The position numbers and the translations under genes are program-made. The notes beneath the pieces were generated by a model. It was not told the origin of the DNA, did no database searches, and was given only the letters and a program-made list of their open reading frames with translations. A DNA stretch of 37,884 bases, from IMG/VR virus record IMGVR_UViG_3300049255_000532, positions 1 to 37,884 of that record, one strand, 5' to 3'. Within the stretch, counting starts at the first letter, position 1, and each line of letters opens with the position of its first letter. Shown in pieces: positions 1 to 25,611 of the stretch. Source of the DNA: a virus.

Positions 1-516
1 CTAGCTCGCGTGCTTACTCCGTCGCCATAGCGTCGTTTTCGACGGTCCGCGCTCCCCGATCTTCGGCCCGGGTCGCTTCGCGCCGAGTTTCTTCATGCCG
101 TTGCGGATCCGCTCCGCGATCAGGCTGCGCTCGAGCTCCGCGACAGCGCCCAGGATGGTGAAGACCAGTTTTCCGTAAGGCGTCGAGGTGTCGATCGATT
201 CCGTCAGGCTCACGAAGTCGATTTTCAGCGCCTGGAATTTTTCGAGCGAGTTGACCAGGTGGCGGACCGATCGCGCGAAGCGATCGAACTTCCACACGAC
301 GATCGCTTTGAAGTCGCGCCGGCCGCGTTCCGCGTCGGCCATCATCTCGTCGAGCGCCGGCCGCGATTCCTTCGCGCCGCTCCAGCCGTGGTCGACGTAT
401 TCGTGTGTGATGTCCCAGCCGCGCGTCCGGCACATCTCGCGCAGGGGCTGGAGCTGAGCCTCCGGATCCTGGTGGCTCTGTGCCTTGGAAACGCGCGCGT
501 AGAGAGCGACCTTCAT
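1..516 (-). CDS. Small serine recombinase (resolvase/invertase family)
   Basis: A 171-residue protein of the resolvase/invertase family, which cuts and rejoins DNA through a serine-DNA bond. The N-terminal catalytic domain is clear: YARVS at residues 6-10 gives Ser10 as nucleophile, and WKFDRFARS at 75-83 carries the conserved arginines. The segment around 115-142 (GKLVFTILGAVAELERSLI, then the long helix) is the usual dimer helix. The C-terminus is odd. Family members normally end in a helix-turn-helix of about 45 residues; here only about 23 residues (149-171) follow, with GPSKTTLWRR resembling just the last helix. This is much smaller than large serine integrases, so a role in resolution or inversion is more likely than phage integration, but that is inference. 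It reads away from the plus-strand gene at 535. A GGAG lies 10 nt before the ATG. Confidence 0.9.
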   Translation of the reverse strand: MKVALYARVSKAQSHQDPEAQLQPLREMCRTRGWDITHEYVDHGWSGAKESRPALDEMMADAERGRRDFKAIVVWKFDRFARSVRHLVNSLEKFQALKIDFVSLTESIDTSTPYGKLVFTILGAVAELERSLIAERIRNGMKKLGAKRPGPKIGERGPSKTTLWRRSKHAS

Positions 517-4815: not shown

Positions 4816-6922
4816 TTCCATAAGGCGAGTACTCTCCAAAATTCGACGAGCTGGTCGGCGCGGTGAAGGTGTAGACCGACGGATCCGTCTGTCGGCCGAC
4901 GATGTCGACGCCGATCACGGGCGCCTGGTCCTGGCCGGCGCCGGCTTCGATCGTGATCGTCACCTGGTCCGCGAGAAAAACTGTGTCATTCATATTCCAG
5001 CGCGAGTGCACGAAGCCGAAGGTGTCGCCGGCCTCAATTTGGAATGCGGTCATCTTGCAGGCCAGCGTCACCGTCTGCTGGAAACGCAAACGCATCAGCG
5101 TGATCTTCGCCAGGCGCTGCGCGGTCCAGAGCGAGGTGGTGAAGTCGAGTTGAATGTCTTGCCAGATCACCTGCCCGCTATCTTCCGAGTTCAAGTAGTT
5201 CGGTTTTCCGGCGAGCCCGTTGGCCTGGTATGAGGGAAAGCTTTGCGTCTGCCACGCCGCCGGCACCTGCACCATGCTGAGCGCGGCGCCGGGGTTCGAC
5301 GGCAGAAACGCGGGAATGTAGCGGCCTTTGACGGAGTTCGCGACGTCGCGCTTCGAAAGCCGGAAGTCGCCTTTGATCGGGCCGCGCAGATCGTTGTCGG
5401 TCACCGTGGCCAGCGGCGTCACGTAGGCGCCGGCGAAAACGTGCCAGAGATCTCCTGGCGAAATTACCCAGCCGGCCATCGATCCGCAGAGCGAGGTGAG
5501 AACGTCGCCGCGGTTCGACGAGTGATCGAACATCCCATTGCAGGAATAAAGATTCTCGTAGACCACGGTGTTGTCGGCGTTCCAGATGATCAGCTCTTGT
5601 TCTTCGCAAACGTTGGCCGCGGCGATGACGCTCGCACTGTCGATGGTCGATGCGGCCACGCCCAGGCCTGCGTCCGCGTCCTGCAGGTAATCGTTCACCA
5701 CCAGCGCACAATTTGAAGGATTGAGGGCATGCGGCGAACGTCCCATGCACGTCCAGGTGGCCGCGTTGTCCGTGGTCGTCGAGCCCACGGCCGTCGCAAA
5801 CAGCGGATGAGCACTGCCGGTTGAGCCCGCGGTGGTGAGCAGCTGCAGGTAGCCGATCGGCGCCTCGATCACGGTCTGCAGCGCGCCCGATCCGTAGGTC
5901 GCGCCTGGCGCCCAGGTATCGTTCAGCAAAATGCCGGCGCCCAGGCTGCCCGGTGTAAACGCGAGCTGTGGCGGATTGTTCGGAAAGTTTCCCGTGAGCC
6001 AGAAAGCCAGGCCGGTGCCGGTCGAGTACCAGGTGCAGCCGCCGTCGGTCAGGGTTGTGGCCGCGGAGTCGTTGGCTTCGAAGTTGGGCCGAGTGCCTCC
6101 GCTCGAGGGGTTGCCGCTGGTCTGCTGAAACCAGACGACGCCGTGGTTATCGACGATGTAGGTGTACTGGTGGTAAGTCGTCGAGCCCTGCCAGGTGTTG
6201 ATGACGCGCGGATCGGTCAGCTTCTTTCCGGTCACCAGAAATTGAATGTTCGGAATCGAGCCGTTGGGAAAAACGTAAGGCCATCCCTGCGAAGCCGAGA
6301 GCACGACGTGCACCTTGGCGCATCCTCGCTGCATGAACGCGCTGGTCCAGCCCGAATCGACCGCACCCAGCTCAGGGAAGGCCTGCGTCGTGTTCGCTGG
6401 GTTGCCGCAGTCGAAAGTCATCTCGAGTGAGAGCCAGTAGAAATCTGAAAGCGTGCTCGAGTTCGCCGGCTTCAATACCCAGTAAGTGCCGTTCCAGATC
6501 AGGTCGCTGCCAAAGTTGTAAATCGAGCCATTGATGCAGATTGCATCGAAGCTGGAAATTTGGTGACCGGTGAGCGTGTAGACCAGGTGCAGCCGCTGCT
6601 GGTCGACGTTCTGGTTTTCTGCCGGCGGAAAGCTCGCATAGGTGAGCACTCCCGCAGTTTGGAATTGCCCGTAGATCACGCGCCGCGGCGCTGGGCCTTG
6701 ATTGAAGCTGACCTGGTTCGCCGTGCCTACTGGCTTCGTCGGCGCCGGCCGCAGTGCCACTCCGACGCCGCTCAGAGCCGTGCTGACGCCGATACCGAGC
6801 ATTGCGCTGAGCAAGGCCGCATGACCTTCGATAGCAATCAGGCCCAGCATTTGCAGGCCGGGAATTGCCGCGAGCGCCAGGCCTCCGATGATCAGGCCGA
6901 TTTCAGTGAAGGTTTTGCTCAT
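4787..6922 (-). CDS. Tail hub / tip attachment protein (J-like)
   Basis: A 711-residue protein of the central tail hub, which caps the distal tail tube and contacts the host. The N-terminus is apolar and glycine-rich (IGLIIGGLALAAIPGLQML), usual for this family. It is followed by APRRVIYGQFQTAG and HLVYTLTGHQISSFDAICIN, the typical start of phage lambda J-type proteins, and later by segments matching the tip-J core (DLWHVFAGAYVTPLATVTDN; FRLSKRDVANSVKGRY; KITLMRLRFQQTV). Two inserted modules of about 60 residues (roughly 6010-6205 and 5740-5930) resemble an insert in the head-tail connector gene. The ATG at 6922 is chosen; upstream codons are basic and low in coding character. It lacks the long C-terminal fibre part of lambda J, so receptor binding may sit elsewhere. 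Confidence 0.88.
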   Translation of the reverse strand: MSKTFTEIGLIIGGLALAAIPGLQMLGLIAIEGHAALLSAMLGIGVSTALSGVGVALRPAPTKPVGTANQVSFNQGPAPRRVIYGQFQTAGVLTYASFPPAENQNVDQQRLHLVYTLTGHQISSFDAICINGSIYNFGSDLIWNGTYWVLKPANSSTLSDFYWLSLEMTFDCGNPANTTQAFPELGAVDSGWTSAFMQRGCAKVHVVLSASQGWPYVFPNGSIPNIQFLVTGKKLTDPRVINTWQGSTTYHQYTYIVDNHGVVWFQQTSGNPSSGGTRPNFEANDSAATTLTDGGCTWYSTGTGLAFWLTGNFPNNPPQLAFTPGSLGAGILLNDTWAPGATYGSGALQTVIEAPIGYLQLLTTAGSTGSAHPLFATAVGSTTTDNAATWTCMGRSPHALNPSNCALVVNDYLQDADAGLGVAASTIDSASVIAAANVCEEQELIIWNADNTVVYENLYSCNGMFDHSSNRGDVLTSLCGSMAGWVISPGDLWHVFAGAYVTPLATVTDNDLRGPIKGDFRLSKRDVANSVKGRYIPAFLPSNPGAALSMVQVPAAWQTQSFPSYQANGLAGKPNYLNSEDSGQVIWQDIQLDFTTSLWTAQRLAKITLMRLRFQQTVTLACKMTAFQIEAGDTFGFVHSRWNMNDTVFLADQVTITIEAGAGQDQAPVIGVDIVGRQTDPSVYTFTAPTSSSNFGEYSPYGITGVMTGVE

Positions 6923-8507: not shown

Positions 8508-8666
8508 TTATTCCAACAGTGCGGCAGCCGCCGCTTTCCACGCCGTTTTCACGACGTCAGGCAACAACGACCAGTCCAGCGGATATGGGGGGAGAAATGC
8601 GCGGGCTGATTCGCAAAACGCCCGGTAGGCCTTCGACGCTTCGGCTTCGAGTTCTTCCGGTGGCAT
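8508..8666 (-). CDS. Small tail-module protein, 52 residues
   Basis: Starts MPPEELEAEASKAYRAFCES and ends in a helix of alanines (KTAWKAAAAALLE), a compact helical protein with no recognised family. Its start overlaps the stop of the upstream minor tail gene by one base (TGATG), and its stop is 2 nt before the next start, so it is translated as part of the tail operon. Conserved position in a tight operon is the main evidence; the role is unknown. Confidence 0.7.
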   Translation of the reverse strand: MPPEELEAEASKAYRAFCESARAFLPPYPLDWSLLPDVVKTAWKAAAAALLE

Positions 8667-9469
8667 CACAACGCTTCTTTCGCTTTGAAGCTGATCTTGT
8701 AAATCTTGTCTTTGTCGACCTTCCACGTCGGCCGGTTGTCGAGCAGGCGGAAGGTTCCGGCCGTGTTCGCCGTGACGATCGCGTTGCCGTCGGCGATCGT
8801 CTCGCGGATGTTCGGAAAAATCGTCAGCGCCACGTTGCCGGCTACTGTGCTCGAGGCGTTCTGCACGACTTTGTAAAGCCGTTGCGGATTTCCTGAGACC
8901 GTGACCTGCACGTAGTCGCCGGCGACGGCCCAGTTCGTGATGCTCGCGGTCGCACCGCGCAGGTTCAGCGTGTTCGAGCCGTTCAGGTTGTTTCCCGAAA
9001 CGACCGGCGCTCCGCTCCACGGGCCTTGCGGCGAAGGCCGCAGGTAATCGCCCATCAGAAACGTTCCGTACTTGCCATAGAGCGACGCCAGAAACGAGAT
9101 CCACTGCTCCGCCTGGGCGAGTGTGAGCGGTGGCAGGTCGACCTCGAGTTCGAAGCGCTGGCCTTGCCACTGTTGCTCCTGCTGGCTGTAGGTAAAAGGC
9201 GATTCGGTTTCGCCGACGACGTTGGCCATCGTCATGGAAAAATCTTGCGGACCGATGCCCGCGATCGCCGGCGCTGAGATGGGGTAGTTAATTCCCAAGA
9301 GTGGACTCGTGACTGAAATCTGCAGAACTTCCTGCGTTGACTCCACGCCGGCGACGGCCGTCGGCACGACTGCGGAGATTTCGAGAACTTCCTGCGTCGA
9401 CTGCACGGCGCCGGAATTCTGCGCCGAGATCTCGAGAACTTCCTGCGTGGACTGCAGGCCCGTTGCCAT
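8666..9469 (-). CDS. Minor/distal tail protein with N-terminal STQEV repeats
   Basis: A 267-residue tail protein. The N-terminus has three near-identical copies of QSTQEVLEIS spaced by 9-12 residues (residues about 7-53); similar short threonine-glutamine-valine repeats open several siphophage structural proteins. The middle matches a known tail protein pattern (FSMTMANVVGETESPFT, then QQWQGQRFELEVDLPPLT and FLASLYGKYGTFLMGD). The C-terminus alternates short strands and ends with KDKIYKISFKAKEAL. Located between a lectin-like virion protein and the BIG2 minor tail protein, it is probably part of the distal tail ring. No enzyme motif is present. Confidence 0.8.
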   Translation of the reverse strand: MATGLQSTQEVLEISAQNSGAVQSTQEVLEISAVVPTAVAGVESTQEVLQISVTSPLLGINYPISAPAIAGIGPQDFSMTMANVVGETESPFTYSQQEQQWQGQRFELEVDLPPLTLAQAEQWISFLASLYGKYGTFLMGDYLRPSPQGPWSGAPVVSGNNLNGSNTLNLRGATASITNWAVAGDYVQVTVSGNPQRLYKVVQNASSTVAGNVALTIFPNIRETIADGNAIVTANTAGTFRLLDNRPTWKVDKDKIYKISFKAKEAL

Positions 9470-16450: not shown

Positions 16451-16878
16451 GAGGCTTCGGTGTAGAAGGCCTGCAGGCGCACCAGCGCGCGATAGAGTCT
16501 TCCGTCCGGACCGGCGCCTTCTTCAAACGGCATATCCCGATCGGCGGTGACGTTTACAAATTGAATCGTGGTTCCGTCCGGCAGTATGCCGGCGTTGAAC
16601 GTTTCCACCAGATAAGTTTTCGCCGCCCTGGTAAGTGCGGTCGCCGCTTCTTGCGTGTCTGCATAGCCGTCGAGCTGGATCTCGCCATCGATCAAATCGC
16701 TGATGCCGTCGAGCGTTGCTTCGGCCGGCGGCGCGCCGACGCGGTTGAGCACCAGGTGCGGCCGCGGTGGCTGCTTCACCGCGCTGTTAATAAAAATGCT
16801 CAGGGCCGGCGGCGACGCCAGGTTCTGCGTCACCGCGGGCGCGAGCAGCAGCTGCGCGTAGATGCCGGGCAGGATCAT
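16447..16878 (-). CDS. Tail completion / terminator protein (DUF3168-like)
   Basis: A 143-residue protein in the tail terminator slot, upstream of the tail tube genes. It follows the DUF3168 order: an N-terminal helix (MILPGIYAQLLLAPAVTQNL), a segment PPRPHLVLNRVGAPPAEATL, a strand-rich centre (EIQLDGYADTQEAATALTRA) and the closing strands around RLYRALVRLQAFYTEAS. Proteins of this type cap the tail and dock it to the head. The stop overlaps the GTG of the tail tube paralogue by 4 nt, and the start overlaps the stop of the upstream beta-helix gene. Confidence 0.78.
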   Translation of the reverse strand: MILPGIYAQLLLAPAVTQNLASPPALSIFINSAVKQPPRPHLVLNRVGAPPAEATLDGISDLIDGEIQLDGYADTQEAATALTRAAKTYLVETFNAGILPDGTTIQFVNVTADRDMPFEEGAGPDGRLYRALVRLQAFYTEAS

Positions 16879-18515
16879 CAGTTGACCGGCGTGCAGACCG
16901 CCGGCGCCCCACCGAACTCATACGCGCCAATGTCCCAGGCCCCAGAAGATGGCCGCGGATTTGTCGCTGCTCGCCCCACTCCCGTGATGGTGTGGTTGGA
17001 GACGTTGTAGGTCACGCCATAGGACGTGTCTTGCATGCAGGCTGCTTGCGCGTTGGCGTTGACTGTGGCGTTCGAGGTCGCTCCGCTGCCGATCGTCGTG
17101 CAGAGCGAGGCTTCGTTCGTGCCCGCGCCCACGGTGGAACCGGTGCCCAGAGTCGGAATGAAAGAGTACGTCGCTCCCGTCAGCGAATAGCCTTGAGAAT
17201 TCGCCGCGGCCTTCGATTGCGGCAGATTGGTTTTGAAGTTGTTTGTGCCTGCCGTTGGCGCGATCCAGCTGTTGCCCGTGGTGGTCGTGATGCAGTGGGT
17301 GTTGATCCAGTTCGCGGTGTTAAGACTGCCGCTGCTCCGGCCGCAATTTCCGCCGGGTGTGCCCGAGTCCACTCCGCCCTCGGCGGTGTTATTGACCCAA
17401 AAGGTTACATTCGATGAGCCGTTGTTGCCTTCGTACATTTGCATCATGTTCCCGCCGTCCATGTCCGGCAGTACGTTGTTGAAGGCGTAGCTGGTCAGCG
17501 AGTTCGGCCCCATCTGGAAGTCGACCACTCCCACGTTGCGGCCGTGCTGGACGACGTTGCCGTAGAGCACCATCGCCGAGCCGCTCTCGCCATTCGACTC
17601 GAACATGTTTTCGTGATCGGTGCCGTTGTCGGGAGACAGGACCTGCCACTCGATGACGTTGTTGTGGAAGTCGATCGGGTTATTGAGAACCACGCTGCTC
17701 CCGCCGAAGTAGCCGATGTAGTTCATAAAAATCTGCCGCGGGCCGTACTGGATCGCGGTGAAGGTGCATGGCCCTGGCGGCGTGCAGGTGTCGGAATTGT
17801 CGAGAACGTTGTGGTGCAGGGTTGAGGTGTTGTCGTCTCCCGAGGAAGGCCAGCCGATATATTGCGGAGTGTGGCTTCCGTCGTGCGCGCTGTTCGAGCC
17901 GTGAAAATAATTTTCGTAGAGGTGGTCGTCAGAGTTTCCTGTGCCGGCGCGATTGATCGCGTAAACGTTGGCGATGGTGGCTGCAGACTGATTGTTGAAA
18001 ATGCCCGTCCACTCCAGGTTGTCGATATCGACGAACGTGGCGCTCAGTGCCATCTGCGCCGAGCAAGTCCCACTGCAGGAAATGATCGGCCGAGTCCACG
18101 ATGCCCCAGTGAACCAGGCCGGGTCGTAGCCGAGATAGATCGGGTGACCGCTGGCGCCGCTGTGACTCCACGTCCACAGCGCCGTGGTCGAGTCCCACGT
18201 CACTCCGCCCTTGAAAATGAAACCGGTGCCAGTGGAGATCGAAGCCGACGAACAATTATTGGCGCAGCCGGCCATGCCTGGTGCGTGCTTCCACGCTGCG
18301 CCTTCGCTGGTCCCTGCGTTCGTGTCTGCTCCGCCGACAAAGTCGATGAAGTAGCAGCCGTTGTTGATGCCGATTCCCGCGAGCGTGCTGGCGCTGGTTG
18401 CCCCATAGACCGGCTCCATACGACCTGAGTCCGATGGGCAGGTGCCGCCCGCAGCGAAAGCGGAGAGCGGGGCGAGTGCGCCCAGCAGAATGAGTGCTAG
18501 ATTTCTCAGGATCAT
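16878..18515 (-). CDS. Secreted parallel beta-helix protein
   Basis: A 545-residue protein with a Sec-type signal peptide (MILRNLALILLGALAPLSAF, cleavage near AFAAG). After a Cys-containing start it shows repeated short strands with asparagine and glycine turns (VYAINRAGTGNSDDHLYENY; LHHNVLDNSD; FHNNVIEWQV; LYGNVVQHGR; YAFNNVLPDM), the rung pattern of right-handed beta-helices as in polysaccharide lyases. It ends in GAWDIGAYEFGG, the usual end of secreted beta-helix proteins. An EPS-degrading or sugar-binding function is likely by analogy but not proven. It is unusual between tail completion and head completion genes. The ATG at 18515 overlaps the upstream stop (ATGA); upstream residues are shadow sequence. 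Confidence 0.75.
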   Translation of the reverse strand: MILRNLALILLGALAPLSAFAAGGTCPSDSGRMEPVYGATSASTLAGIGINNGCYFIDFVGGADTNAGTSEGAAWKHAPGMAGCANNCSSASISTGTGFIFKGGVTWDSTTALWTWSHSGASGHPIYLGYDPAWFTGASWTRPIISCSGTCSAQMALSATFVDIDNLEWTGIFNNQSAATIANVYAINRAGTGNSDDHLYENYFHGSNSAHDGSHTPQYIGWPSSGDDNTSTLHHNVLDNSDTCTPPGPCTFTAIQYGPRQIFMNYIGYFGGSSVVLNNPIDFHNNVIEWQVLSPDNGTDHENMFESNGESGSAMVLYGNVVQHGRNVGVVDFQMGPNSLTSYAFNNVLPDMDGGNMMQMYEGNNGSSNVTFWVNNTAEGGVDSGTPGGNCGRSSGSLNTANWINTHCITTTTGNSWIAPTAGTNNFKTNLPQSKAAANSQGYSLTGATYSFIPTLGTGSTVGAGTNEASLCTTIGSGATSNATVNANAQAACMQDTSYGVTYNVSNHTITGVGRAATNPRPSSGAWDIGAYEFGGAPAVCTPVN

Positions 18516-19909
18516 TGAACGTAGGTGAGCCATCCGACGACGGTCGGAGTCGTGCCGGTGAGGATGTAGCAGAGCGCGTCGCCGACCGGAACGACCGGCC
18601 CTGGCGAGGTCCACATGATGCCGGGCGCCGCGGTCGTCAGAGCAACCGGCTGCGTGAGAATTGTCGTTCCCGTCGCGCAGTTGGTGCCGGTGCCATATTC
18701 GAATTCGATCGTCGGCGTGGTTCCACCGCCCTGCAGATAAGCGCCGCAGATGTAAATCTTTTTTCCGGCCGCGAGCGCGATCAGCTGCGTCAGGGTCGAG
18801 CCTGAAAGGTTGAGCGGCGTAGAGGCAAAGCTCGAGTTGTTGCTGGTGCAGCCGTTGGTGGTCGTGCGAAACGCGACGTAGAGATTGCCGGAACCGTCGG
18901 ACTGCAGCGGCAGAGTTTGCCCGTTCGAAGGTGAAGGCGCAGCGGTGTTGGAAATGGTGCCGACGATCTTCGTGTCGGAGGGCGCCGTTCCTGGCACCGT
19001 TCCCACCATGTCGTCAGCTTCGCTCGAGTCGTTCGAGACAGTGACACGCGCCACGCCGTTGCCACTCGCTCCTGTGCCGGTCGCGACAGCGTTGCCGCCG
19101 ACGTTCTTCACGTTTTGATCGAGGACTCCAGCGGTACCGAATGCCGTGCCGTCAGCTCCGAGCAGGTTCACATCCAATCCAAACTTCGACGTATAGGTCG
19201 ACGAATTCGAGGTGAGCGCGTTGCCGGCTCCATCTTGAGTGCGCGTGCTCCACGTGCCACTCTGCGTCACCGCGGGAATATTGGTGATGAAAGCGTTGAC
19301 GCCGGGCACCAGCACGGCGCCGGGAGAAGTTCCATAGTTCGCCATCGCGCCCAGCGTTCCGCCTCCCCATGTGGTGATCGCGCTCGAACCGCTGCAGCCG
19401 GTCTTGCAGTCGACGTTCACGTAGCCGGATCCGTCGACGGGCGAAACAATCGTCACGCTCGATCCGCCGCCGCTCGATGGATTCTGCGTGTAGCCGAGCA
19501 GCACAAACGTCACTGATCCGCTGCCGGTTATCGAGTAAGTCAGCTGCGCGCGCACGTTCTGTGTCGCGCTGGTAGTCGTATAGACGCCGGTCGATGTGCA
19601 GGTCTGCGAGCTGACGATCGAGCCGGTCGAGAATGATCCGCCTGGGATAGCCCCACCATCGACGGTGACGCTGCAGGCAGAGACCGTTCCGTTCACGACC
19701 CACTGCACCATGTAGTACTGCAGGCCGCTGACGGTGAAATTGTTCATCGAGCCGCTGCCGGCGGTGACGGAAGGCCATGCCAGCCCGAGCTGGAAGGGTT
19801 CGCCGGAAACCAGCGAGAGCGGAGTGCCTTGCTGTGCCTGTCCTGGGACGAGGCAGAGCGCGAGAAACAGCAGCAGTCCGATCGGCAAAAATAAACGATT
19901 GTTCTTCAT
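18512..19909 (-). CDS. Secreted-type structural protein with beta-rich repeats
   Basis: A 465-residue protein starting MKNNRLFLPIGLLLFLALCL with cleavage probable near GQAQQG, so a Sec signal peptide. The mature part is strand- and glycine-rich without charged helices. One stretch (LDQNVKNVGGNAVATGTGAS, then ARVTVSNDSS) matches a motif order common in phage structural proteins from metagenomes. The C-terminal 140 residues form another beta domain with cysteines (CTSNNSS, ICGAYLQ, CATGT, CYILTG). It lies 14 nt after the head-closure gene's stop. Its role could be head decoration or an exported adhesin. Confidence 0.72.
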   Translation of the reverse strand: MKNNRLFLPIGLLLFLALCLVPGQAQQGTPLSLVSGEPFQLGLAWPSVTAGSGSMNNFTVSGLQYYMVQWVVNGTVSACSVTVDGGAIPGGSFSTGSIVSSQTCTSTGVYTTTSATQNVRAQLTYSITGSGSVTFVLLGYTQNPSSGGGSSVTIVSPVDGSGYVNVDCKTGCSGSSAITTWGGGTLGAMANYGTSPGAVLVPGVNAFITNIPAVTQSGTWSTRTQDGAGNALTSNSSTYTSKFGLDVNLLGADGTAFGTAGVLDQNVKNVGGNAVATGTGASGNGVARVTVSNDSSEADDMVGTVPGTAPSDTKIVGTISNTAAPSPSNGQTLPLQSDGSGNLYVAFRTTTNGCTSNNSSFASTPLNLSGSTLTQLIALAAGKKIYICGAYLQGGGTTPTIEFEYGTGTNCATGTTILTQPVALTTAAPGIMWTSPGPVVPVGDALCYILTGTTPTVVGWLTYVQ

Positions 19910-19923
19910 GAGATAAATGTCTC

Positions 19924-20307
19924 CTATGACGCGCTGCCCGCGTTTTGATTGATCTCGAAGGCCATGATGCGCAGCTCGACGCGGCGTTCGTCGGGATCTT
20001 CGATGGCCACGATTTGAAAAGTTCGCAAGGTGCCGAAGTCGTACATGCCGATCGTCATGCTCTCGAGCACGCCCGGCTGATAGGGCACGGTGACCAGGTG
20101 ACTGACGCGCTGCCCGATCTGCTGGGCCTTGTCGAGCTCCTGGCCGCTGAGCGCGCGCACCGATGCCCAGGAGTTGCCATAAGCGCTTGCCTGGACTCCG
20201 GCCGTGGGATTCGCTGGATTGTTAAACGTGATCCAGCGATCCATTGCGCCGCGGCTGGTGTACTGCCCAGGCCCAGGCGGCCGCCCACTCAGTCTTGGCA
20301 GCGGCAT
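19924..20307 (-). CDS. Head-tail joining / head closure protein (SPP1 gp16-like)
   Basis: A 127-residue protein of the head-tail joining family, whose ring closes the portal-adaptor channel. The order is characteristic: WITFNNPANPTAGVQ, SWASVRALSGQELDKAQQIG, VSHLVTVPYQPGV, then TFQIVAIEDPDERRVELRIM. The ATG at 20307 abuts the stop of 20308-20742. The location near the gp6-like connector agrees with its role, though an exported-type gene separates the two. Confidence 0.87.
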   Translation of the reverse strand: MPLPRLSGRPPGPGQYTSRGAMDRWITFNNPANPTAGVQASAYGNSWASVRALSGQELDKAQQIGQRVSHLVTVPYQPGVLESMTIGMYDFGTLRTFQIVAIEDPDERRVELRIMAFEINQNAGSAS

Positions 20308-20742
20308 CTAGTTGAATTGCACGATCGCGAACTTCACTGCGGCGTTGCTGCAGGTCATGCTCACCGTCGATCCCGAAACCCAGCCAGTCTGGTACTTCAT
20401 TTCGACGGCTGCGATCACGCCAGCGGCGACGGAATAGCTGGTCAGGGATGTGTCGCTTCGGCCGAGCTGGTCGGCGACGCTCGTGATGGTGATGGTATAG
20501 GTGCTGCCGCCGGTGTTGTTGATCAGCACGATCTCGCGGCCGGTCGATGCGAAAGAGTTTCCGTTGACCGTGTCGCACGCCGTGAAGGTGAGCGTGAGCT
20601 GGCCGGCAGAGACGGCGACGTTGTTGATAATCAGCTGTTGCGTGGTCAGCGCAGTCGGAGTCGCGAATGCGGCCGTGACGAACATCAGCACGATCGCGAC
20701 GGCAGCGGTGAATTTACGGAACGGCGAGTGAGTGAATTTCAT
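20308..20742 (-). CDS. Small signal-peptide protein in head-tail module
   Basis: A 144-residue protein with a Sec signal (KFTAAVAIVLMFVTAAFATP, cleavage near AFA-TP). The mature 115 residues are a strand-rich domain: NNVAVSAGQLTLTFTACDTV, then GREIVLINNTGGSTYTITIT and VAAGVIAAVEMKYQTGW. This beta pattern resembles small virion surface domains in environmental phages. Two cysteines (TACD, MTCS) could pair after export. It sits directly between the gp6-like connector and the head closure protein, where a cytoplasmic gene would normally be expected. Confidence 0.72.
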   Translation of the reverse strand: MKFTHSPFRKFTAAVAIVLMFVTAAFATPTALTTQQLIINNVAVSAGQLTLTFTACDTVNGNSFASTGREIVLINNTGGSTYTITITSVADQLGRSDTSLTSYSVAAGVIAAVEMKYQTGWVSGSTVSMTCSNAAVKFAIVQFN

Positions 20743-20766
20743 TGGGTGAGTTTCTCCTGTTCGGTT

Positions 20767-21669
20767 TTAGCCCGCGGTGGAGGCGAGGATATTGATCTTC
20801 CAGCGATAGAGCATTCGCTCGAGCGCGGGATTCTTGGAAATGGAACCGGCAAATGACAGTTCGCGGTTGAAGAAGGCGTCTGAAATCAGCAGCAGCATCG
20901 CCTGGCGCAGCGCCGCCGGCGCTGCAGTTCCGTCATTACCGTAGCCGGCCACGAAGTGAATCTCGACCGCGTTCGGAACGTAGAGAACCGGCGGCCAGGT
21001 CTGGCCGGCGAGCGGAAAGATCCGCGGTGGGCAGCTGACTGCGTCATAGATGAAGTCTCCGGGCGGAGCGAGATCGCCATTCGTCCAGGTCAGCGCGTTG
21101 TCGGTGGTCGTGCCGTCGACGATCAGATTCCAGGTGGGAACCGCCGGGCCTGAGCTGCACGTACCATCTTCGTTGGCGAGTTGCTCATTCACGGCCGTCA
21201 CCGTCTGCAGGTTGCCGTTCGCGTCCTGGATCTCGTCGCCGATTTCGTAATTGCTCGAGGCCTTCCAGGGAAGCGGCGCCGTTGGCACCAGAGAAAGTTT
21301 TTCGCCTGTCGCCGAATCCATGTAGTCGATGGAGGTGACCGAGCGCAGCGGCGCCCGCAGCAGCTTGATCATCTGCGAATAGTTCCACAGCGTGGTCGAG
21401 TACCGCGGCAGCGAGTAATAGCTGGGCGGAAAGGCTTTCTGGCTGGTGACGGTGTCGATGTAATAGGGGAACGAATCGAACACCTGCAGATAGCCCTTGT
21501 TCACGATGGAGCGCGAGGTGTAGCCCTCGACTTCTTCGCGCGCGCCCTGAATCAGGAAGTTGATCAGGCCGTCGTCGGCCGTGACGCCAGGTGGCACCTT
21601 CAGGTAATTCTTGACGAAGGCGAGGCTCAGCGGTTCCGCCGCGGGCGCGATTTCTTCAACGATGTACAT
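20767..21669 (-). CDS. Head-tail connector protein, gp6-like, with inserted module
   Basis: A 300-residue protein of the HK97 gp6 / DNA-packaging connector type, the first ring below the portal. Family features are PLSLAFVKNYLKVPPGVTAD at the start, then FLIQGAREEVEGYTSRSIV, QVFDSFPYYID, and a C-terminal helix set (LRQAMLLLISDAFFNRELSF). Members are usually 90-200 residues. Here about 65 residues (roughly 21075-21275; WKASSNYEIGDEIQDANGNL to TTTDNALTWTNGD) are inserted, and a closely similar module occurs twice in the tail hub gene. The connector role is well supported; the insert is the oddity. Confidence 0.82.
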   Translation of the reverse strand: MYIVEEIAPAAEPLSLAFVKNYLKVPPGVTADDGLINFLIQGAREEVEGYTSRSIVNKGYLQVFDSFPYYIDTVTSQKAFPPSYYSLPRYSTTLWNYSQMIKLLRAPLRSVTSIDYMDSATGEKLSLVPTAPLPWKASSNYEIGDEIQDANGNLQTVTAVNEQLANEDGTCSSGPAVPTWNLIVDGTTTDNALTWTNGDLAPPGDFIYDAVSCPPRIFPLAGQTWPPVLYVPNAVEIHFVAGYGNDGTAAPAALRQAMLLLISDAFFNRELSFAGSISKNPALERMLYRWKINILASTAG

Positions 21670-21672
21670 GAG

Positions 21673-24600
21673 TTAGGGAATGACGGTGGTGACTTCGTTC
21701 GAGTACGGGCTTTGCTGCTCGCCGACCTGCGCGGTGACCACGTAGTAGTACTGGCCGCCCGTCACCGAGAGGTCCTGGAAGGTCTGCGCGTTGCCATCGA
21801 GCGTCTGGATGGCCGTGTAAGGGCCGCCACTGACCGGGCCTCGATAAACAATCTGCGAGGTCACTCCCACCGTCGGCGACTTGCGCCAGATCAGCGTTGC
21901 GGCGCCTGAGGTGCCGAGCACGCTCAGGAATGTGGGCGAAGAGATCCCGCTGGCCGAGGTGGTCTGCACCTGGTTGGAATATCCGCCTTCGGCCGAAGAG
22001 CTGAAGGCGTCGACCACATAAAAGTACGTCTGCGCCGCGATGACGCTGCAGTCGGTGTAGGTTTCGCTCGTCGCCGGCAGCGGCGTCAGCAGCGTTCCGA
22101 GGAACTGGCCGCCGGTCTGCGAGCGATAAAGATTCTGGCCGATGGCGATGGTGCTGGGCGAAACGCGCCACACCAGAACCGAGCACCCAGCCTCTTGTGT
22201 CACGCGCAGCCAGATCGGCGGCGAGGGCAGCTTGCTGCCCAGTCGATTGATCGCGTCGGATGTGACCAGCGCGTCGACCAGAAATATCTGGTAGCCGGTC
22301 GGTGTGACGGCCGCAGCGGCGTCGTTCGTGGCGAGGATCTCGAAAAAGCTGCGCGCGCCGGTGAATTGCCGCGCGATCGCATCGCTGGTGACGACGCTGT
22401 CGTTCAGGGTCAGCACGTTTCCCAGGCCGCCGGCTGAAAGGAAATCGGAGGCGCTCAGGCTCTCGCCGGCGGCGCGCAGCCCGGTGTACTGGCGCGTGAG
22501 CGAATCGATCGTGGTCAGAATTTCAGGAAGCGACACGTGATGTGGGGAGACCGTGACCAGGACGTCACTGGTGCTCACGCTATCGGCGAGGGCGAGTGAG
22601 CCCACGTAAGTTCGCGCCAGCGTGTCGCTGGTCGTTAGCGTTTCTGTCAGCGCTTGCGCGTGAGTGAAGTGGCGCGCGATCGCATCGCTGACCGTCAAAC
22701 TTTCGGTAAAGGACTGCGCATGCTTCGCGTTCACGCTCAGCGCGTCGCTGGTGATCACGCTGTCGGCCAGGGCGCCGCTGCCGAGCGAAGCGAATTGCCG
22801 GACCAGCGCGTCGACTACGGCTAACGATTCGGCCAGAGTTCGCGTGTGCGGCGAGACCGACGTCAGCGTATCGACCGTGCTCAGCGCTTCAGCCAGAGAC
22901 TTCGCGCCGGCATATTTCCGCGCGAGCGCGTCGCTGGTGGTCAGGCTCTCGCTCAGCGCCTGCGCGTGAGTGAACTGGCGCGCGATCGCATCGCTGATGG
23001 TCATACTCTCGGTCAGACCAAAATTAGGGATGAAGTCCACGCTGACCGCATCGCTCGTCACCAGGCTGTCATTCGGGTTGCGCAGTCCGGCGAACTGCCG
23101 CGTCAGCGTGTCGCTGGTGGTCAGAGTCTCGAGGCGAAAGCGCGAGCCGGCATAGACGCGGACCAGTGTGTCGCTCGTCGTTAGCGTCTCGCTGAGAGAT
23201 CTAGATGCAATCACCTGTTTACCCAGGGCGTCGCTGGTGGCCAGGCTTTCATTCAGACTCGGAGTGTGATCGATGAAGTTTGCCACCAGCGCGGCGCTGG
23301 TCGACAACGTCTCGCCCAAAGTCGCGAAGGCCGCGAACTGACGCACCAGCGCATCACTGATGGTCAGCGTCTGGGAAATGGTCAGGAAGCCATTGTGCTG
23401 GTGCGCGAGCGCGTCCGTGGTGGTGAGAGTTTCCGTCATTTGCCGGTGGTACTGAGATTTCGTGACCAGCGCGTCGGTCGTCGGCTCGCTCTCGGTTAAG
23501 TTGGCCGCCAGCGCGCTCTGTCGCATCGCCGTGATGTTCGACACGTAAGAGGCCGCATAGGCCGCGCACGGCAGGTAGTTGGGATCGAACGCGCAGAGCC
23601 AATCCTGGTTATAGAGCTCGATGTGCGTCGTGCCGACCTGCTGCATCAACGGCAGAATGTTCGTCAGTGATCCGGTCTGGCTCTGCTGAGATCCTGCGGT
23701 GCACTGGGTTTCGTCTCCGAGCGTCGTTTCCTGTGGACAGCTGGCGGCCAGGGTCTGAAATTCGTGCACGCCGGTAGTCGGGAAGTGGTGGAACAGATAG
23801 CACATGTTCCCAGCGCAGTAATTTCCCGAGGTCGCCGCGGTGCCACCATCGGCGAATCCGAAAGTGTTGAAGGCGATGGTGTCGTTTTGCGTCAGCCCCT
23901 GGCTGCCGAATCCGCCCTTGTTGCCTCCGCCCCAGAATCCTTCGGCGTCGGTCGCTTCCGCATCGGCCCAGTCATAGCCGATCACGCAGGATGAGTTCAC
24001 CGGCACGCAGGTTCCGTCGTTGCCCGCCATCAGCGGATAGGTCGTCGTCTGGGCGCCCATCGTCGAGAACTCGTGAGCGTAGAGCGCCCCAGCATAGTTC
24101 GTGATGGTGGTTTTGATTTGCGCCGTCGTCTTTGCGAAAAATGTTTTGAAGAGGCTGATGCAGTGCGGGAAAACTTCGCCGCCCTGGAAGACGCCTATGC
24201 GCTGATAGGAAACGCGGTTGGCCCACGACTGCGCTGCGATGTAGGCGATCGCCTGATCCTGAAAGGCTTCCCACGCGGTGCTGTAGGGAACTGACGGAGT
24301 CCATGGATAGCCGGTCGTGTCGGTGTTGGTGTCGGAGGTCGCGACATAGACTGTGTCGGTTCCGACCGCGCCGTCGCCGGGATAAGTTGCACCTTCGCCA
24401 GCGCTCGAGCAAAAGCCGACCGGCATCACCGTGGTCGACAGGGAAGTGGCGTAAGTCTTCGAGAACACATAGCACGGCGTGTGCGTGTTCGGCCCTGGTC
24501 CGGCACTGATCCCTGAGAAAATAATTCCGACCGTCGCCGTCGCCGGAAAATTCGAGTCGTTCAGAATGTTCGTGATGGTCGTGCCCAGCGACGAGAAGTT

Positions 24601-25050
24601 GTAGGCCAAGTGGGCTGTGCATCCTGAGTTGCTCGTCTCGAGGTCGGTCCAGTTGAAGATGAGCGTCACGCCGTCGAGCTGGCCGCTTCCATAGACGTAG
24701 AGGCTCACGTCGTCCTGGCATTGCTTGATGTTCGTCGTGCCCTGCTCTGTGAATGTGACGCTGCCCCATGTCGTCGTCGATCCGGATCCGGTGTTGAACG
24801 TTGGCTGAGATCCCGATGCTGTCGTGCCGGCGGTGGTCGCTTTGTAGAAATGGCCGTTCGTCGGACTCGGCACTACCCAGCCCTTGAGCGGATAGTGCGT
24901 GCTGGCCGCGACCGTCGGCGCCGTGACGCCGCAGTTCACCTGCGACGTCGGCGGACCGAAGTCGAGCGCCTGAATATGCCCACTGCCGCCCGGCGTCTGA
25001 GCAGCCGCCGCGCAGCAGAGCAGCGCGAAAATGAGCGCGAGTCGACGCAC
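21673..25050 (-). CDS. Giant secreted modular protein: TIM-barrel-like, 21 repeats, two FN3-like domains
   Basis: A 1,125-residue protein starting at GTG with a signal peptide (RRLALIFALLCCAAAAQTPG). In order: a 60-residue module like that in the connector and tail hub (about residues 50-105); a domain of about 350 residues with a TIM-barrel-like glycosidase look (DGVTLIFNWTDLET, YQRIGVFQGGEVFP, HIELYNQDWLCAFDPNY); then, near residues 517-940, twenty-one tandem copies of a 20-residue unit, consensus LTESLTTSDALARQFAGARS; then two fibronectin-III-like domains to the end. No catalytic pair can be proven. The repeats could form a rod between an enzyme-like head and a surface-binding tail. It is a candidate exported depolymerase or adhesin. 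Confidence 0.75.
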   Translation of the reverse strand: MRRLALIFALLCCAAAAQTPGGSGHIQALDFGPPTSQVNCGVTAPTVAASTHYPLKGWVVPSPTNGHFYKATTAGTTASGSQPTFNTGSGSTTTWGSVTFTEQGTTNIKQCQDDVSLYVYGSGQLDGVTLIFNWTDLETSNSGCTAHLAYNFSSLGTTITNILNDSNFPATATVGIIFSGISAGPGPNTHTPCYVFSKTYATSLSTTVMPVGFCSSAGEGATYPGDGAVGTDTVYVATSDTNTDTTGYPWTPSVPYSTAWEAFQDQAIAYIAAQSWANRVSYQRIGVFQGGEVFPHCISLFKTFFAKTTAQIKTTITNYAGALYAHEFSTMGAQTTTYPLMAGNDGTCVPVNSSCVIGYDWADAEATDAEGFWGGGNKGGFGSQGLTQNDTIAFNTFGFADGGTAATSGNYCAGNMCYLFHHFPTTGVHEFQTLAASCPQETTLGDETQCTAGSQQSQTGSLTNILPLMQQVGTTHIELYNQDWLCAFDPNYLPCAAYAASYVSNITAMRQSALAANLTESEPTTDALVTKSQYHRQMTETLTTTDALAHQHNGFLTISQTLTISDALVRQFAAFATLGETLSTSAALVANFIDHTPSLNESLATSDALGKQVIASRSLSETLTTSDTLVRVYAGSRFRLETLTTSDTLTRQFAGLRNPNDSLVTSDAVSVDFIPNFGLTESMTISDAIARQFTHAQALSESLTTSDALARKYAGAKSLAEALSTVDTLTSVSPHTRTLAESLAVVDALVRQFASLGSGALADSVITSDALSVNAKHAQSFTESLTVSDAIARHFTHAQALTETLTTSDTLARTYVGSLALADSVSTSDVLVTVSPHHVSLPEILTTIDSLTRQYTGLRAAGESLSASDFLSAGGLGNVLTLNDSVVTSDAIARQFTGARSFFEILATNDAAAAVTPTGYQIFLVDALVTSDAINRLGSKLPSPPIWLRVTQEAGCSVLVWRVSPSTIAIGQNLYRSQTGGQFLGTLLTPLPATSETYTDCSVIAAQTYFYVVDAFSSSAEGGYSNQVQTTSASGISSPTFLSVLGTSGAATLIWRKSPTVGVTSQIVYRGPVSGGPYTAIQTLDGNAQTFQDLSVTGGQYYYVVTAQVGEQQSPYSNEVTTVIP
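22233..23499 (-). repeat. Tandem array of 60-bp units (21 copies, protein-coding)
   Basis: Within the giant secreted gene the sequence repeats with a 60-nt period, encoding 20-residue units of consensus (L)xESLTTSDALARQ(F). The units are degenerate at the ends but highly similar in the middle; for example TSDAIARQFT recurs with few changes. Such arrays can expand or shrink by recombination. The register and codon bias show that selection is at the protein level. Confidence 0.85.
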
Positions 25051-25056
25051 GCGGAA

Positions 25057-25611
25057 TTAAATGCTGATCGTCCACGTGATGGTGAGAGTGTCGGTGTTGG
25101 CCAGGTTCACCTGCGTGAACTGCGCTTCGAAGACCATCGTCCCAGAGCTCGAGGCGTTGAACATGCCGGCCTTCTGCACCGACTGCGAAGCGGTCGCTGT
25201 CCAGGTGTGCGCCACCGTCCAGGTCGCGGTGCCGTTGGTATGGGCGTAGGTTCCCTGGGCGCGCGCGCAGCCGTTGGTGGTGATTTCGCTGGGCAGCGTA
25301 CAAGCCGAGGAACCGGCCGCACAGTCGCCGGCCGCGGGCGCAGTGGCGTCGTTGGTCAGGGCGATGTAGTTCACTGTCGCCGGAGGCGCGGAGGTGTTGC
25401 CCATCGCGCTGGCTTGCCAGTCGGCTCCGCCAGTCGTGCGCAGATTGTGAAGCTCAGTGTCATAAAAAATCGTTCCGTCGGCGTGACGGCCGACGATGTG
25501 AACGTTCACCTCTCGGGTCAGGTGAACCTCAGAGGTCTGCGCGACGGCACTGGTCGCGAACAGAACAGCAGCGAGCAATCCGAATAGTTTTTTCTTCATC
25601 TGTTGTTTCAT
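25057..25611 (-). CDS. Signal-peptide protein upstream of the giant modular protein
   Basis: A 184-residue protein with an N-terminal signal (KKKLFGLLAAVLFATSAVAQ, cleavage near AVA-QT). The mature part has about ten strand-like segments (EVNVHIVGRHADGTIFYDTE; YIALTNDATAPAAG; ANTDTLTITWTISI), giving a compact beta-sandwich or jelly roll. Similar proteins with this order (FYDTELHNLRTTGG, then YIALTNDA) appear in environmental phage genomes near capsid genes as presumed structural proteins. There are two possible starts; the first at 25611 is taken. The signal is clear; the virion or secreted role is undecided. Confidence 0.73.
   Translation of the reverse strand: MKQQMKKKLFGLLAAVLFATSAVAQTSEVHLTREVNVHIVGRHADGTIFYDTELHNLRTTGGADWQASAMGNTSAPPATVNYIALTNDATAPAAGDCAAGSSACTLPSEITTNGCARAQGTYAHTNGTATWTVAHTWTATASQSVQKAGMFNASSSGTMVFEAQFTQVNLANTDTLTITWTISI

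Follow-up and report, generated by a model that had tools for sequence, protein, structure and literature searches.

One small domain family with a predicted CBM5/12-like fold in the neck connector, tail hub and a secreted protein of a soil phage

How does one domain of about 60 residues come to sit in the head-tail connector, twice in the tail hub and in a secreted protein of a single phage, and what could it do there? The question is raised by the 37.9-kb (37,884 nucleotides) virus record IMGVR_UViG_3300049255_000532, the whole of which is called the window below. Its source is a soil phage whose host is probably a member of the Acidobacteria, as judged from the company of the module carriers. 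Phages of Acidobacteriota represent a poorly studied host group, and the adaptor and stopper proteins of the neck are usually treated as pure head-tail plumbing.

One module family at four positions of the window

The initial annotation described four related segments in three proteins, and these are present and belong to one family (Table 1). Pairwise BLASTP among the window proteins gives E-values of 0.002-0.005 for hub against connector and 0.017-0.026 for hub against the secreted protein. Because this similarity is weak, a profile was built from the connector inserts of relatives: 80 connector homologues were taken from viral contigs, their inserts were cut out, and 47 distinct inserts from other viral contigs, with the window excluded, form the connector-only profile. 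Searched over the 677 open reading frames of the window, it recovers the connector insert, hub copy B and the secreted protein, and hub copy A is clear only with a wider family profile that contains window rows. The family membership of hub copy A is independently supported by the corresponding copy of a relative (L089 hub A), which matches the connector-only profile at 5.3e-6. A fifth copy was not found within the window.

Table 1. Module copies and their carriers in the window, with i-Evalues of the two family profiles
Feature	Position	Strand	Basis	Connector-only profile	Wider profile
Lambda J-like tail hub (by profile)	4787..about 6925	-	phrog_5616 1.3e-41; phrog_31 (central tail fiber J) 3.9e-14		
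Hub module copy B	5741..5923	-	connector-only HMM; AlphaFold2 model of isolated module, pLDDT 93.5	4.9e-11	2.8e-16
Hub module copy A, in tandem with B	6017..6205	-	wider profile	0.38	2.1e-14
Stopper/head-closure gene, without module	19924..20307	-	stopper alignment		
HK97 gp6/RcGTA-type head-tail adaptor (Ad1), carrier of the insert	20767..21669	-	Pfam, PHROG, predicted fold		
Connector module	21076..21279	-	residues 132-199 of stop-to-stop frame; W..Y..GD..D.NGN.Q...P.W...TTTDN.LTWT; HMM of other viruses' inserts	2.5e-22	8.9e-21
Secreted protein, carrier of the fourth copy, 1125 aa	21673..25050	-	reading frame; signal-peptide-like start MRRLALIFALLCCAAAAQ		
Degenerate module near N-terminus of secreted protein	24739..24924	-	residues 45-106 of stop-to-stop frame; HMM	0.002	1e-9

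Across 76 modules, W4 is conserved in 70 (92%), Y10 in 62 and W57 in 74 (97%), P40 is invariant, position 42 is Trp or Phe in 100%, and D52 is likewise conserved. The copy in the secreted protein has lost the first Trp and the DG/DN pair, and the homologue of this protein in G307 keeps the same degenerate form. A search of phages and plasmids with the consensus sequence of the family gave no match, perhaps because a low-complexity filter masked the sequence, and the PDB, searched with the family profile, yielded no significant sequence match; a hit there to a phage J protein (0.035) covers only a stretch of 38 residues without the flanking Trp residues.

The carriers are unrelated to each other, in line with the earlier description. 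The connector scores above the cut-off for PF05135 (2.6e-5, 25 bits, cut-off 21.2) and matches phrog_442 (1.2e-15) and phrog_40 (4.3e-12). The core of its model resembles the RcGTA adaptor (6toa_D, Z 18.1) and HK97 gp6 (3jvo, Z 10.1), and by Pfam score and modelled gp6/adaptor fold together it is classed as HK97 gp6-like. The hub is assigned to the lambda J type by its profile matches to J/hub families. In an alignment of relatives, both hub modules are located between IPNIQFLVTGKKLTDPR and NPSNCALVVNDYLQD, and the tandem pair occurs in 11/11 full-length hubs.

The secreted protein also contains, at about 22200-23550 on the minus strand, many repeats of ~24 residues of the type LTESLTTSDALVRQF(A/T)GAR. 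Along the minus strand from 16878 to 25611, proteins with signal-peptide-like N-termini (25057-25611, 21673-25050, 20308-20742 and 18512-19909) are interleaved with neck genes (connector and stopper), which is an unusual location for secreted-type proteins.

Carriers, gain and loss, and age of the insertions

In the connector family the entire module is either present or missing between ...LSLLP and GDFIYD..., and homologues without it include L066-L071, L077 and L081. A tree of the connector core has at least four changes of state on well-supported branches, or six by parsimony, in a sample biased towards module carriers, since some of the search patterns fell within the insert. The module occupies three different sites in connectors: two relatives (G308 and G309) have two tandem modules at another site, before the C-terminal helix, and L141 has one module after the FSAGY strand. 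Six stoppers have the module in the middle of the protein (L041, L045, L048, L051, L056 and L080), while most others, including that of the window, are without it; the module-bearing L159 matches Phage_HCP (PF05521) at 3.9e-15. L080 has the module in the stopper and none in the connector, which is the reverse of the window phage.

The wider search suggested earlier found the module across viral contigs, cultured phages and Acidobacteria genomes. Between one and four copies are present in 17 of the 20 related viral records. Among cultured phages, Tunturi_3, an Acidobacteriota phage that infects Tunturiibacter psychrotolerans, gives six matches spread over four open frames (down to 0.005 for the weakest), Tunturi_4 gives one, and a search of Tunturi_1 and Tunturi_5 gave zero. 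Elsewhere, cyanophage Cy-LDV1 has four matches, Caulobacter phage DMCA one and a Lysinibacillus phage one, and HK97 has zero; a partial match of lambda J (1.3e-4) is taken as noise. Twelve of 297 genomes (phylum of an Acidobacteria MAG) have module matches. The range of carriers thus comprises connector (three sites), stopper, J-like hub, major-tail-like protein, flagellar hook FlgE, pilin-like and secreted proteins, and all carriers that could be classified are extracellular or virion proteins. L131, a carrier with an Ig-like match (phrog_2175 and phrog_476), is probably a tail protein. Pilin-like N-termini are present in L132 and L137, and L145 matches PilX_N. FlgE carriers occur in Acidobacteria genomes as L133, with L135 and L136 grouping with it, and these three copies form one clade. 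Judged from the domain match, the insertion in FlgE, a protein of a cellular appendage, lies in its D2 domain, as the FlgE_D2 match of L133 extends over 183 residues for 123 profile positions and the surplus is about one module length.

The family PHROG 20658 ('head decoration') is matched by 13/18 modules (best 1.3e-7), and the matches cover the module itself; in the window's secreted protein, the match (0.0016) is confined to residues 43-100. A head-decoration function is therefore ruled out as a reading of this label: PHROG 20658 is a family label on a module-bearing protein and provides no evidence for a head role. The module by itself suffices for the label, which makes it an annotation trap. 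Tunturi_3 gp19 (L195:9183-12593) is annotated as 'head decoration protein', and its sole PHROG match covers residues 254-312. In L172, L131 and others, the same PHROG is matched by the module alone, and unrelated carriers may inherit the label.

The spread of the module among these carriers is old. In a tree of 124 modules, the labels for carrier and site need 18 changes compared to 58.2 in shuffles, with few columns, many open forks and one L089 hub B module labelled as hub A; its robust element is the clustering by carrier. The window's hub B joins other hub B modules (98/95), and its connector module joins the G307 connector module (100/92). As modules cluster by carrier and site and not by genome, the insertions are old and inherited. 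The initial annotation proposed a mobile decoration domain, and the mobility stands on the evolutionary scale, whereas recent copying within the genome is ruled out by the module tree and by a codon-usage test. The latter concerns the agreement noticed over ~30 bases between the ends of the connector and hub B modules, which is real (26/30, reached by 0/300 codon shuffles). From the peptides TTTDNALTWT and TTTDNAATWT and the codon usage of the genome, 22.7/30 is expected, with P(>=26) = 0.027. Protein identity and codon usage thus account for the match, which adds little and is not evidence of recent copying.

Predicted fold and relation to CBM5/12

The conserved pattern had pointed to a compact beta fold of the kind seen in carbohydrate-binding domains, and structure prediction agrees with it. 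The AlphaFold2 model of the isolated hub B module, computed with 76 relatives, is confident (pLDDT 93.5, pTM 0.79), and the model of the full connector has a pLDDT of 85.5 and is weak at residues 71-93 and the last residues only. The insert taken from the connector model superimposes on residues 586-642 of the tailspike of cyanophage Pam1 (PDB 7eea) with Z 8.2 and 1.5 A over 57 residues, at 18% identity. Moreover, residues of about 131-202 of the connector model align with CBM5/12 chitin-binding domains at Z 4.2-5.5 and an rmsd of about 2-3 A over about 45-53 residues. These domains belong to Vibrio chitin deacetylases, Serratia ChiB and Streptomyces ChiC, and the 2d49 domain is aligned whole (53/53). 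The Z values are in the middling range, and many independent chitin-binding domain entries concur. The CBM5/12 matches emerged only with the whole connector model: a Foldseek search of the PDB with the isolated module gave no significant match and no chitin-binding domain among its 39 chains. Against viral predicted structures, the isolated module has about 38 matches with a probability of >=0.93, many of them named tail fibre or baseplate.

At the sequence level, Pfam CBM_5_12 (PF02839) is weakly matched by 5/76 modules (best 1.5e-5). The sole whole protein listed (L139) scores 24.6 bits, below the gathering cut-off of 26.2, and the window's hub, secreted carrier and connector have no CBM_5_12 match in the Pfam search. 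When compared by profile with four CBM5/12 domains, the family aligns over the N-terminal 25 columns only (E 2.6e-4, probability 42.5), and the alignment ends before the region of the ligand-binding Trp, so a module counterpart of this residue is not established. The N-terminal W..Y pattern of the CBM5/12 type and a C-terminal Trp are present in the module family. With a fold match and a sequence below the Pfam cut-off, a CBM5/12-like fold is supported by the models, and formal membership of the family is not claimed. The CBM5/12 domains of chitinases and chitin deacetylases are thus similar to the module in the fold of the insert, the N-terminal W..Y..G and the closing Trp. In contrast, they have about 45 residues compared to about 60, lack the additional P[WF]...TTTDG..TW half, and adjoin catalytic domains instead of being inserted in virion proteins.

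Possible roles of the module and precedents

Known systems offer several points of comparison. In lactococcal 936 siphophages, carbohydrate-binding modules (CBMs) occur on the neck passage structure, the major tail protein and the evolved Dit, and GFP fusions of two of these modules attached to host cells (PMC6669499). The likeness is that several virion proteins, at the neck too, bear small binding modules that vary among relatives, and the same arrangement is found here in the connector, the hub (twice) and the relatives' stopper, with gain and loss. On the other hand, the neck CBM of 936 phages has another fold and is placed at the tip of a long fibre, formed by a collar protein that is separate and optional, whereas the module lies within the adaptor or stopper itself, core proteins of the neck ring, and also in the hub. 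The receptor-binding domain of the Pam1 tailspike is the nearest solved fold, but is positioned near the C-terminus of the tailspike and is not a neck or hub insert. RcGTA shares the core fold of the adaptor; in RcGTA and the siphophage R4C, accessory carbohydrate-binding domains are described on baseplate proteins, and a search of that paper by terms brought up none for the adaptor or stopper (PMC10276861). Domain shuffling among phage proteins is well documented (PMC10684548). In the open-access literature, covered in part, no account of CBM-type inserts within adaptor or stopper ring proteins was found. What is new is the insertion into core neck-ring proteins, this small domain and the Acidobacteriota host group; virion CBMs were already known.

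The best explanation is that the module is a weak multivalent glycan adhesin, carried as a CBM5/12-like insert in virion proteins, which holds particles on the host; this is judged moderately probable, on the grounds of the fold, the extracellular or virion carriers, gain and loss among relatives and the 936 phage precedent. Homology, predicted fold, insertion sites and gain and loss form its observed part. Phages would insert an independently folding domain of ~60 residues into surface loops of virion proteins. The particle would then carry one copy per adaptor-ring subunit at the neck, presumably facing outward and in the copy number of the ring, two tandem copies per tail hub subunit, and a degenerate copy on the secreted protein. 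Each domain may weakly bind a host-associated polysaccharide (envelope glycan or exopolysaccharide), and many weak contacts would sum to retain the particle at the cell until it engages the true receptor. The repeated insertion of such a domain in adaptor and stopper, and its loss from them, suggests that the neck ring may also be an adhesion surface. Counted against the adhesin are the degenerate secreted copy, the score below the CBM_5_12 cut-off and the short profile alignment, which gives the ligand-binding Trp no established counterpart; in addition, W4, Y10 and W57 may owe their conservation to a place in the core.

The main rival, considered rather unlikely, is a structural spacer or clamp that binds no sugar and fills space or ties subunits together in the neck ring, hub trimer, hook or pilus, with the CBM-like fold inherited and its binding face lost or reused. 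Its carriers indeed form rings, tubes and filaments (adaptor, stopper, hub, major-tail-like protein, FlgE and pilin-like proteins), the ligand-binding Trp has no clear counterpart in the module, and the degenerate secreted copy is still retained in G307. However, close homologues lack the module at the identical site, showing that assembly can do without it; the module also occurs as tandem copies and in secreted proteins that are apparently monomers, and the nearest solved match belongs to a receptor-binding tailspike. Binding to environmental polysaccharide such as chitin, cellulose, or plant and fungal residue in soil, which would keep virions near growing hosts, is an improbable alternative to binding the host itself. 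It would suit the chitin-binding fold neighbours, the origin of relatives from metagenome viral contigs, the one cultured carrier from tundra soil and the host appendage proteins (FlgE and pilin-like) with the module, yet identical evidence suits a host glycan, and the precedent modules attach to host cells (PMC6669499). Convergence by chance or low complexity of Thr/Gly/Asp-rich stretches is hardly credible. Pairwise BLASTP is weak, and the lambda J match indicates that weak scores of such kind can be noise, but the independent profile reaches 2.5e-22 and 4.9e-11, the W/Y/P/W pattern is conserved with P40 invariant, and the common fold is confidently predicted. For connector and hub, the independent profile and conserved pattern rule chance out.

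The glycan-adhesin reading can be extended to the hosts. A doubtful extension is that one adhesive brick is common to phages (neck ring and hub) and Acidobacteriota hosts (flagellar hook and pilin-like proteins), where it would bind the same polysaccharide in multivalent adhesion in soil. The domain in the hub and in the hook and pilin-like proteins of hosts offers a small testable unit for how Acidobacteriota phages find soil cells.

Two further features of the window lie on the minus strand. A tail protein at 8666-9469 has three near-identical (Q/E)STQEVL(E/Q)IS copies at its start (9310-9469), and the left end of the window (1-516) encodes a serine-recombinase-like protein (MKVALYARVSKAQSHQDPEAQLQPLREMC...).
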